Assembly: GCF_010183535.1 (NCBI RefSeq)
Contig: NC_071328.1
Coordinates: forward strand, 13,392,001 to 13,456,000
Origin: Caenorhabditis remanei
Taxonomy: Eukaryota; Nematoda; Chromadorea; Rhabditida; Rhabditidae
DNA: 64,000 nucleotides
Reading direction: 5' to 3'
Part shown: positions 9,599-49,218 of the stretch, piece by piece
Layout: each line of letters starts with the position of its first letter
How positions within the stretch are numbered: the first letter of the stretch is position 1
Position numbers and translations under genes: made by a program
The notes under the pieces: model-generated
Told to the model about the DNA's origin: nothing
What the model saw: only the letters and a program-made list of their open reading frames with translations
Databases searched by the model: none

Positions 9599-9873
9599 AC
9601 AGGGTCTCGGGATGAGTAGTGAAATCGAACGCGCTCCACGAGACATTGGCGGCAAATTCAAATTTTAATTTTTTTCAATTCGACTTTAAGCATTACGTTT
9701 TGATACGCAGCTTAATCGACCACGTGTTGAGCCGATTTATGTCAGTTTTTCTTTTCAAGATCAACTCTATTTAAAAAACAAACAAAATTTTTTTTTTGAA
9801 TTTCGCGCTAAATTTTTAGCTGATTTCAGCGGAGCGCGTTTATTTTCACTACTCATTCCGAGACTCTGTGTTT
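9599..9873. mobile_element. Palindromic MITE with GTCTCGGGATGAGTAGTGAAA ends
   Basis: The left end GGGTCTCGGGATGAGTAGTG and the right end CACTACTCATTCCGAGACTC are inverted copies, both followed inward by a CGCGCTCC / GGAGCGCG phrase. It abuts MITE family A copy 1. Non-coding. Confidence 0.6.
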
Positions 9874-10075
9874 TATTTAAATGTTCAAAAATAGATTATT
9901 TCAATTAAAAAAGTACTTGTATTTTTTCCCTAGCTTCCAAACCCAAATTTCAAAAAAAAACACCATTTTTCAGAAAAAAACTTTATTACGAAATATCCGT
10001 CTTTCGTGAAATCTCCCTGATAATATTTAGATACCATTATTCATTCGATTTCACAATTCCCTTCTTCTTTCCCCT

Positions 10076-10140
10076 CACAGTCTTTCAAAGTGATAATCCG
10101 CAACGGAGCGCGATTGCGCCGATTGCTGGCGCCTTACCCG
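10076..10140 (+). repeat. Left terminal inverted repeat of the transposon
   Basis: Starts CACAGTCTTTCAAAGTGATA and ends near GCTGGCGCCTTACCCG. It matches the element's right end (13555-13609) in about 25 of the first 27 bases, and the left end of the short element at 48415. Confidence 0.85.
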
Positions 10141-10798
10141 TTTTTATGAAAAAATGAAGTTTTTTTCAATTATTTCAAATTTAACCAATTTTCTTCGCAC
10201 CAAATGTAGTAACAATTCATAACAGACTGAAAACGGATCGAATAAATGTAAAAACGTAAAATTTGGTTGAGAAATTGCAGAGATGAATAAGTTTTTAAAA
10301 AATCAACTGAAAAATCAAGATTTTCAAGGTTTTCAGGCTATAAAAGTTGTTGGAAATGTCGATGCGTGTTCTAAAGAAGTAACAATTGTGCAGTTTTTGA
10401 CGGCGAACATTTCAAGACCAAAAACAAGTCACATCTCTCCGGAAAAAAAAAGTTGAAAGGAAAAGAATAACATTTTTTCGACAAATTTTTTTTTTTCGAA
10501 CGTTAAAAGAAGAAGGTTTTGAATAAAATAAGCTGAAATATTATCGAATTTGAAAGAGTTTAGTGCAAAAAGAGTGTTTGATATGTTCCATTGTTATTTC
10601 GAGATCTCTATAGGATTGCATTTCAATTACATACAACTGTTTCAGAGAAGACAGGGTTCAGTGAGACGGGAGGCGGCTGTTGGGTCAAGATTGTTAGAGA
10701 CAAGGTTGGTAAAGAGTGGAAAAAGCTAAGATTCGTAGTGGTAGATTCATAATGGAAATGGGAACATTAAGCTGACAAAGAGTAGGAAGATAGCAAAT

Positions 10799-13326
10799 AT
10801 GAGAAAAAATCATTTTAAAACAAGTACGATTCAGATGCCGAAACCGTCACCTCGTTCGAAAGCCGGCGCCAGCAACGTGAAAAAAAGAAAAGTTGAAACG
10901 GCAAACGTCGAATCTTTGCTCTGGAAATCAAAATTTGACACCCTGAATGAAGCACTGATAAAAGAACAAAAACTGAAAATAGATCTGCAAGAAACTCTCG
11001 AAAAATTGAGTGAAAAGCTACAAAAAAAAGATACCGAGTTGAACCATGAGTTCAAATCTCATTTGACAACAAAAAGAGAATTACAAGATGCATACGGAAA
11101 ATTATCTATATTAGAAATGAAAAACGATAATTTGATAAATGAGCTGAAAGAAGAGAAGAGAAAATCGATTTCATCGTCGCCATCAGGAGGCAAAATATTG
11201 AAGAAATACGCAGAAATTGGAAAACTGACGAAGAATGTTAGGTGTCAGCGAGTCGTTAGATTCATGGAAGAGCTAGTTGGTAAAGAAGACCTGGACCTCT
11301 TTGTCACTGATTTGGTATCTTTTTTTGATAGAAATCATGAATTTCAATTTCGATTGAAATTAACTCCTGAGGAAACATTTCATGTGGTTCTCCAATTCAA
11401 GTTGTCGGCTTCTGTTATGCAGGGATTAAAACATTTCTTATCTTCAAAGCTATCGTTCGATGTGTTTGCTTCACGATTGTCTGTTGATAGTATAAGGAAA
11501 AGATACGACCCTCGAAGCGACTACAGTATCGTGGCGACTATGTTGGAAAAGACAGTTTGCGGAAGGCTATTTCGGGTGCCAAAGACCGTAGTTGCATGTC
11601 TGAATGTGGAAAGTGTTTTGAGGAGAAGACTTGAATCTTTGGATGCTTTCTCCAATCTTGTTTTTGATAGTGGAACAAAGGAAGATATCGTGATTGCTGT
11701 AACGGGAGATAAAGGAGGAGAAGAGACAAAGTTATGTATTATCATTGAAAATTGTAGTAAGCCAAATAGCTCACACTCGTTGCTACTGTTAGGATGGTAC
11801 ACTGGAACAGACAACCATGATTCTCTGAAAGAGAATTTCGGAATTATTTTCGACAGTCTGAATAAATTGACATCGATTGAGTACTGTGAAAATGGAAAAA
11901 TCGTGAAACGTAAAGTTCGAATTAAAATGGTCGCAGACTGCAAATTTATCAGCTCAATTTACCAGCATCCCGGACAGTCGTGTTCCGATCCGTGTTTTAC
12001 ATGCAACATCAAGATTTGTAAATCAGGAAAAAATCGGGATACCATCGGATCTTTTGATTTTGCCACTTCAGGAGAAAGTCGCACATTGGAGCAGATGAGA
12101 ACCGATGGATGGAATCCATTATTGAATATTGAGCCATATGATGTTGAACCACCTCCATTACATATATTCATGGGTTTGGTAAAAGCCTACGTGGTCGATC
12201 CTCTTTTTGCATTATGTAACAAAGTAGATTTCAAATTTGGAGATTTGCCGGAATCTTCTAAAGAGCAACGGGAATATCTGAAAATGCTTAATGCTGAATT
12301 AGATGATTATACTCGTATTCTCATTGGATTGCAGGAAACAGAGAATCTCATGCTCGACGTCATTTCAGTTTACGAAAAAATGGAGAACAATATTACACCT
12401 ACCACTCCGTTTGTTTTTGGTTGCTCATCTCCACACTGCTGCTTCAATTACCTACATTCAAAGCATCAGAATCAAGATGTATTTCAGTGTTCAGAGTGCT
12501 CCCAAACATTTCACACCTCATGTGGAAACCTATTCTCACTGGAAGAATGCATGAATTCAACATCAGCTTTCACTTCTTGCTTTGATTGCAAATTGAATGT
12601 GAAACCCACTATCACTGAACGAAAAGATCATGTCGAAGATAGGCTGTTGTATGTCAGAAAGAGAATCGAATCAAATTCTAATTTGGTAATTACCGTTATG
12701 AAAGAAAAGGAAAAGTTGGAGGAAGAGCTTTTTGTTGGGAAGGGACCAACTAGACAAAAGTTGGAAAATGTACTGGTCTCAATCAAATGTGACCCTCGAG
12801 TTTATTACCAGCAAATGACGGGTAATCAGGTAGCTAAATACGTTAGAAGGCATGTCTAGATGTCTTTTTTTTACAGACCCGCCGAGTCCTGAACCCAGAA
12901 AACGCCACCAAAATCTTATCTGTTTTCCCCCCTTCTGTGGACGTGTCCGGATTCCGAAATATAATGACCACACTATCAGAAGGAATGGGATTTAGTAATA
13001 ACTGTACGAAATCCCAAGAAGAAATTGAAGCGATGGAGAATAATTTGGGGTTGCTCATAGAACAATTGAAAACACAACACCCCCATTTGAGCATAACTCC
13101 CAAGCTACATATATATTCTTCACATGTAATTCCTTTCGTTAAAAAAAATAATACTTGGGGGAGGTGTAGTGATCATTGCGTCGAGTCCCTCCACCCATTA
13201 TTCAATAACCTGTTAGTTCGGTATGCGTCCGTTCAGAATCCCGAATTTCGTGCATTATTGATGCTTCAGTATCACGCAAACTTGAATTTTCTATTTGACA
13301 AAGGGGTTTCCTGGGATCAAAATTGA
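10799..13326 (+). CDS. RAG1/Transib-superfamily DDE transposase
   Basis: Two exons, 10799..12829 and 12877..13326, joined by a 47-bp phase-0 intron (GTAGCT donor, TTTTTTTTACAG acceptor), give 826 residues. Residues ~40-135 are coiled coil after a basic N-terminus. The catalytic set is inferred from motif order: D304 (VTGDKGG), D380 (KMVADCKF) and E780 (SDHCVESLHPLF). The zinc set is C399-x2-C402 and H755-x4-H760. D380 to C399 (19) and H760 to E780 (20) match RAG1 D708-C727 and H942-E962 exactly. MTGNQTRRVL (~673-682) resembles the RAG1 MNGNFARKL segment. An extra Cys-rich PHD/RING-like insert lies at ~540-602 (CSECSQTFHTSC). Known: this family cuts DNA by nick-and-hairpin chemistry. No RAG2-like partner is visible. 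The frame is intact. The chosen ATG is the first in frame. Confidence 0.85.
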
Positions 13327-13554
13327 ATTCATTTATTTTCACTGCGTGTTTATGATTTTTAAGTTTTTTTTTAAATTAAAATTACTCTTATAATATAAAT
13401 TGTTTCTTATTGATCTAGATTTTTGCTTTTTACGATATAATTTTACAAAATTTCGTCCATTTTCAACAGAAAAATTCATAGCAAAAATCAATAATTCTCG
13501 CCGCGCAGGGAACAGCTCAAAAAGAGAGGGCGCAGACGATAGGAGAAATTTGTA

Positions 13555-13609
13555 ACGGGAAGCGCGCCAGCTATGTCTGTTGTGCGCATTATCACTTTGA
13601 ATGACTGTG
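13555..13609 (+). repeat. Right terminal inverted repeat of the transposon
   Basis: AACGGGAAGCGCGCCAGC ... GCGCATTATCACTTTGAATGACTGTG, the inverse of the left end. The identical sequence (GGGAAGCGCGCCAGCTATGT onward) closes the short element at 49159-49213. Confidence 0.85.
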
Positions 13610-13635
13610 CCCTTAAAATGAGTCATCTTTCCGTT

Positions 13636-13872: not shown

Positions 13873-16966
<3,094 letters not shown>

Positions 16967-17080
16967 CTTTTAAGAATAGAAAATTCCGAAATCCGAGACC
17001 ACCTTTTTGCACCTAACACCTAGATTTAATTCCCCTGATTTTTTATCGAAAAAATAATTTTTTTTTCTCAATTTTCAGGT

Positions 17081-48409: not shown

Positions 48410-49218
48410 AGCTGCACAGTCCTTCAAAGTGATAATCCGCGACAGAGCGCGATTGCGACGATCGCTGGCGCGATTCTCGTTTTTCAGCTTAAAACCGATT
48501 ATACACCGATTTCTCGAAATTTCAGCATTTTCGCTGGTTCAAAAGTAGTAACAAATGTTCTGCGGACAAAAATACATCGTTTAAGTGTAACCTTCTCTCA
48601 CATTGTCGAAAAATAAGAGAGTTGAAAGACTTTTAAGAAAATCAACTAAAAAAAACCATTTTTTGCCATTTTCAGAAGAAATACGAAAAATTGGAGCGAT
48701 TTCATTTGTTCTCGTTAAGTAACATTTATGAAGATGACTGTTGCGAACATTTTAAGCCTAAATACGTGTTATAATATTCAGAACTGGAATTATTGAATCA
48801 ATTTTTAAGTTCAACTTTTTTCAAAAAATTCAGTTTTTTGTTAATTTTTCGGTCTAGAAGTACTTGAAAGGATTCAAAATAGCATAACGGCAACTGGAAA
48901 TACTTAATTAGCAGGAGAAATGCACTTTTTATTGAAAATTCGAGAGTTTTTTGTTTCTCAAAAAAAAAATAAAACTGACTTTTTGGCGTTGAAAAGCGGT
49001 ATATCATGGTTTGATGGGCACCTATTCACTTCTACGCCTTTTTTTTCGACGAATTCACTCGTTTTATCATAGAACTCGGCAATTTTGCTCGCATGCTCAA
49101 TTAATTGAATTTCGGGTTACTGTAGAATTTAAAGGGAGGCGACACAAAACTTTAAAAAACGGGAAGCGCGCCAGCTATGTCTGTTGTGCGCATTATCACT
49201 TTGAATGACTGTGAGCTG
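48410..49218. mobile_element. Non-autonomous relative of the RAG1/Transib-like transposon
   Basis: The element 48415-49213 (799 bp) starts CACAGTCCTTCAAAGTGATA and ends GCGCATTATCACTTTGAATG ACTGTG, the same termini as the 3.5-kb element. It is flanked by a perfect 5-bp duplication AGCTG (48410-48414 and 49214-49218). The inner ~60 bp at the left (AGAGCGCGATTGCGACGATCGCTGGCGC) and GGGAAGCGCGCCAGCTATGT at the right are shared. Diverged stretches near 48640-48780 also resemble 10290-10430. No transposase gene, so it would depend on the enzyme of the full element. Confidence 0.9.

Follow-up and report, generated by a model that had tools for sequence, protein, structure and literature searches.

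A probable Chapaev-type DNA transposon of Caenorhabditis remanei with a predicted RAG1-type core and an internal PHD-type finger

We analysed a stretch of 64,000 nucleotides of the Caenorhabditis remanei genome (contig NC_071328.1, positions 13,392,001 to 13,456,000), here called the window, for a transposon that occupies window positions 10076-13609. With a probability of about 90%, this is a complete DNA transposon that moves by cut-and-paste and is part of the DUF1280 lineage, a Chapaev-type branch of the RAG1/Transib group. Neither the kind of element nor the link to RAG1 is new; Chapaev is already known in C. elegans and a relation between DUF1280 and RAG1 has been proposed before. The differences from the lineage as described are the predominance of 5-bp target duplications and a predicted PHD-type finger inside the core, which make the element a variant worth follow-up.

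The element is bounded by the inverted ends CACAGTC...GACTGTG and carries a single gene, with two exons and 826 codons, in agreement with the initial annotation of this sequence. An inverted-repeat search found terminal repeats of 27 nt with 93% complementarity, the left one (10076..10102, plus strand) beginning with CACAGTC and the right one (13583..13609, minus strand) finishing with GACTGTG, and both are common to the non-autonomous copies of the family. The gene and all protein features described below are on the plus strand. Exon 1 (10799..12829) contains 677 codons and exon 2 (12877..13326) contains 149 codons and the stop, with a predicted 47-bp GT...AG intron between them (12830..12876). 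Joining of 10799-12829 and 12877-13326 gives a protein of 826 aa in which D304, D380, C399, C402, H755, H760 and E780 are all present, the last three being carried by exon 2. The splice is supported because the relatives P0002 and L059 read without a break across this position. The annotated C. remanei protein CRE_11467 (P0001) is 98% identical to the window protein over 79% of the query, and its C-terminus VAKYVRRHV is that of the unspliced frame of the window; it is therefore without the exon that holds H755, H760 and E780.

A search for copies across the genome of 130 Mb, as the initial annotation had proposed, gave 66 matches including the window element, and many of these were short copies reduced to the two ends. 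A second full copy on contig C5 (L009) differed from the window copy by 17 mismatches and one gap, and its duplication was exact over 3 bp. In total 29 short copies were fetched (19 + 10), and as L069-L073 share flanks and were counted once, these represent 25 independent insertions. Exact duplications of 5 bp were found for 19/25 and of 4 bp for 4/25, with none for the remaining 2/25. In a control of 600 mismatched flank pairs no pair matched over 5 bp, two matched over 4 bp and three over 3 bp. One empty site was also found: an uninterrupted paralogous site, identical at 200/202 bases, has a single CCGCG instead of the two around short copies, which confirms one 5-bp case. For the window copy a 5-bp duplication CCCCT/CCCTT had been claimed initially (10071-10075 and 13610-13614). 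That this length is usual for the family is judged from the other copies; the window copy is exact only over 4 bp, CCCT at 10072..10075 and at 13610..13613 (no strand assigned), and has one mismatch when read over 5 bp. A non-autonomous copy of 799 bp (L018) is located within the window itself (48415..49213, plus strand) with an AGCTG duplication on both sides, and L025 and L026, short copies inserted at two separate sites, were 100% identical. The near-identical second full copy and the many short copies with duplications are signs of recent mobility of the family, as suggested earlier, and not proof of present activity.

The predicted catalytic core is of the RAG1 type, as previously claimed, and the link to RAG1 is real according to both profile comparisons and modelled folds. 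The fold comparison used AlphaFold models of two relatives (P0002 and P0010) in place of the window protein, and with Foldseek the matches to RAG1, RAG1L and HzTransib were far above the rest. RAG1 and RAG1L came before HzTransib in one comparison and RAG1L and HzTransib were tied in another; the identity of the structural RAG1 and RAG1L rows was 13-16%. The lower rows included the P element, Hermes, ISCth4 and coiled-coil proteins, of which the coiled-coil rows cover the stalk region only; absence of a family from these lists carries no weight. The best PDB sequence match of profile A2, among the best 60 of 66 rows, was RAG1L (6b40). The putative first and second catalytic Asp, D304 (11708..11710) and D380 (11936..11938), are invariant in A2, A3 and A4, and the model of P0002 places D313, its equivalent of D304, on strand one of the RNase H fold. 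C399-x2-C402 (11993..12004) makes up the putative zinc motif C(2)C, and profile alignments identified H755-x4-H760 (13108..13125) as the zinc motif H(4)H and E780 (13183..13185) as the catalytic Glu. The spacings of 19, 5 and 20 are as stated in the initial annotation.

In the Pfam search the window protein scored 263.7 bits for DUF1280 (PF06918; cut-off 25), with a match (E=1.7e-78) at residues 144-360 (11228..11878) that includes D304. DUF1280 proteins are the transposases of Chapaev transposons and form one clade with RAG1 (Majorek et al. 2014, PMC3985635), and Chapaev is a clade within the Transib superfamily that is distant from other Transibs (Kapitonov and Koonin 2015, PMC4411706, which names C. 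elegans in a tree legend). Expression of Chapaev-1 in C. elegans embryos and Chapaev-2 as a piRNA target have been reported (PMC6873666, PMC7917558), and DUF1280 domains were also counted in Hydra (PMC7642931). Because the protein is DUF1280 and Chapaev has been described in C. elegans, the element is probably no textbook Transib, and its kind was already known from worms. Like Chapaev, including Chapaev-1 and Chapaev-2 of C. elegans, it has a DUF1280 protein, ends of the form CAC...GTG and the motifs C(2)C, H(4)H and LH (L454-H455, 12158..12163), the last named for Chapaev-type transposases in PMC4079192. Nothing in the window protein visibly corresponds to the Chapa and RING domains reported for Chapaev groups (PMC4411706); its N terminus is a predicted coiled coil. 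This coiled coil, also noticed initially, lies at about residues 40-125 (10916..11173), a position transferred from P0002, in whose model the N-terminal helix spans 12-132; in the window protein no Cys precedes residue 149, which is one.

With RAG1/RAG1L (ProtoRAG) the element shares the predicted core fold, the spacings of zinc ligands and catalytic residues, the CACAGT ends and the 5-bp duplications (PMC7204232), but it has no partner gene, and its PHD-type finger is inside the core and not in a separate protein. Transib, represented by HzTransib, is similar in fold, CAC ends and 5-bp duplications, the latter being given for both RAG-like elements and Transib in PMC7204232, and differs in the absence of the PHD-type insert and the coiled coil and probably in sequence family.

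Several observations weigh against the Chapaev-type assignment or against the RAG1 part of it. Duplications of Chapaev elements are generally 3-4 bp (PMC4079192), whereas those of this family are mostly 5 bp, and named Chapaev or Transib transposases were directly compared through PDB entries only. For the window copy no paralogous empty site was found, the search returning only the flank on either side of the copy itself and two partial matches. The whole-chain Foldseek superpositions were loose, with a root-mean-square deviation of 14-20. In Pfam at E up to 1 the window protein matched none of the models for RAG1, Mirage and CACTA, and in a PDB sequence search at E up to 10 the window protein alone matched three PHD-finger chains and no RAG1; the RAG1 link needs profiles or folds. 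The initial annotation expected D304, D380 and E780 to align with the RAG1 triad, and this was found for the second Asp and the Glu, but no sequence alignment put the first Asp onto RAG1 D600, and of the profile comparisons a single one aligned D380, C399 and C402 to RAG1. A global hhalign run and the first half of another profile alignment were out of register and were not used for single residues.

The description as RAG1/Transib-like stood for the link to RAG1, but probably does not hold for Transib proper. A textbook Transib element would explain the mostly 5-bp duplications, the CAC termini and the RAG1/Transib fold; it is nevertheless unlikely, as the protein is DUF1280 with an internal PHD-type finger and an LH motif, one of the Foldseek rankings has RAG1 and RAG1L before HzTransib (though the tie with RAG1L in the other softens this), and no HzTransib sequence match to the profiles was present among the best 60 of 66 rows or the best 60 of 73. 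We regard as very improbable that a RAG-like (RAGL/ProtoRAG) element has been reduced by loss of RAG2L. The 6b40 match of profile A2 speaks for such an origin, whereas the DUF1280 membership speaks against it, as do the lack of a convergent RAG2L and of a second large open reading frame (besides the frames of both exons the largest in the element is 140 aa, on the minus strand) and the position of Nematoda among the groups without RAG-like sequences in a figure legend of PMC7204232.

EnSpm, Mirage, Chapaev and Transib make up the CMCT group, with duplications of 2 to 5 bp, and C(2)C, H(3-4)H and mostly CA...TG termini are common to Chapaev, Transib and the CACTA and Mirage elements (PMC12730594). 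Assignment of the window element to CACTA or Mirage on these shared features has a minimal probability, since Pfam at E up to 1 gave DUF1280 and not DUF1258 (Mirage) or Transposase_21 (CACTA-like), and the duplications are mostly 5 bp. We take the nomenclature of PMC12730594 to be Kojima-type. If such a transposon had been domesticated as a host gene, an intact open frame would also be expected, but this reading is hardly tenable in view of the ends, the duplications, the second near-identical copy and the many short copies. The RAG-like, CACTA/Mirage and domestication readings were set aside on this evidence in favor of a Chapaev-type transposon of the DUF1280 lineage.

By its ligand pattern and the models of relatives, the Cys-rich insert of the window protein is a finger of the PHD type, carried within the core by a stalk of predicted helices. 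The ligands C542, C547, C564, C567, H572, C575, C594 and C597 (12422..12589) follow the C4HC3 order and none of the eight varies in A3 or A4, two sets of 9 proteins that partly overlap, in line with the PHD-like insert noted earlier. The first ligand pair is spaced C-x4-C, while the usual spacing of the first pair in PHD fingers is x2. The later six-ligand pattern was found in 15/15 proteins (P0001-P0011, the window protein, L059, L062 and L063), a set that includes the almost identical pair of P0001 and the window protein. Profile A2 matched the PHD fingers of KMT2D (E=2.9e-4). In Pfam, P0010 (24.0) and P0011 (24.3) were at or over the PHD cut-off (PF00628, 24), P0004, P0005, P0008 (22.5) and P0009 (18.5) were below it and the window protein was not listed at E up to 1. 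In the models of both P0002 and P0010 the finger is placed between two long helices inside the core, and the model confidence (pLDDT) at the finger is about 79-90 for P0002 but lower, about 43-54, for P0010. Transferred from the P0002 helices 496-539 and 614-654, the predicted stalk helices of the window protein are at about residues 487-530 (12257..12388) and 605-645 (12611..12733).

A Trp two residues before the zinc His (W-x-H) marks readers of methyl-lysine and H3K4me3. It was present in 4/15 proteins (P0008-P0011), whereas the window protein has Thr at this position and P0006 and the other worm proteins are also without Trp. Because they lack this Trp, ordinary reading of H3K4me3 is unlikely for the worm proteins. 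A RING-like N-terminal pattern was seen in 2/15 proteins, P0006 and P0010, although some of the others may be incomplete there. Each of these two thus unites three parts in a single chain: the RING-like N terminus, a DUF1280 core and the finger of the PHD type. None of the literature found on Chapaev and PHD fingers describes a finger in the transposase, nor did any title or abstract in a wider search address it, and Repbase reports and most subscription papers, which were outside this search, may record the finger or the duplication length; in PMC4411706 the PHD finger mentioned is that of RAG2 only. Whether such an element had been described in Caenorhabditis, a question left by the initial annotation, is answered by Chapaev of C. 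elegans (PMC7917558, PMC6873666) for the element, but not for the finger in its core.

Tentatively, the DUF1280 lineage could be a single-protein counterpart of RAG1-RAG2, though we consider this rather doubtful. Such a protein would combine a RAG1-fold core and RAG-type 5-bp insertions with a histone-reading PHD finger of its own on a stalk inside the core, joined by a RING in some relatives. The transposase itself would then select its targets according to chromatin state, and in the Caenorhabditis copies the reading pocket would be altered. In vertebrates the choice of targets by chromatin state is supplied by RAG2.

RAG1 and Transib pair the ends, nick 5' of CAC, form a hairpin on the flank and carry out strand transfer with a 5-bp stagger. 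By analogy, and from the fold, residues and duplications, we infer that a transposase dimer would bind the CACAGTC ends, and that the RNase H site formed by D304, D380 and E780 would nick and cut them. Hairpins would be left on the flanks, as with RAG1 and Transib, and insertion would follow with a stagger of 5 bp, sometimes 4 bp. The same protein may move the short copies in trans, which is assumed because only the ends are shared. A probable task of the PHD-type finger is to contact chromatin or a further protein at the target site, although this is a guess.

The element provides an open-framed and recently mobile transposon with a predicted RAG1 fold in a genetically tractable genus, with short substrates ready-made. 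Duplication length is weakened as a criterion for separating Chapaev from Transib. In addition, it can be tested whether evolution has combined a PHD finger with a RAG1-type core repeatedly, in trans with RAG2 and in cis here.

Other DUF1280 elements of the genome had duplications of 5 bp (L060, CAATG; L062, CGGTG) and 6 bp (L063, ATTATG), and the register is less sure for L062, as its duplication resembles the element end itself. Of five longer loci, L059 and L061 were without ends and duplications. L061 (G000:C2:17517800-17523400), dominated by an inverted duplication of flanking sequence, has a DUF1280 gene between long inverted copies of an apparent host gene segment and no clear transposon ends. 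An end search on 30 short loci, most of them too short for both ends, gave one candidate pair (L045) and no duplication. Protein searches scored the candidates with the most words in common, 7994 for the A2 alignment and 7996 for P0006, and found at least 3 proteins (1 new) and at least 4 new proteins, respectively. In a scan of viral contigs with A4, 144 stretches matched by pattern and 0/144 encoded relatives.

A foldback-like inverted repeat is located upstream of the transposon at window positions 9600-9868, with 38-nt arms of 87% complementarity and 193 nt between them. Downstream, reading-frame pieces at 14873-16970 resemble an EF-hand host gene with several introns, presumably of the penta-EF-hand-like kind.
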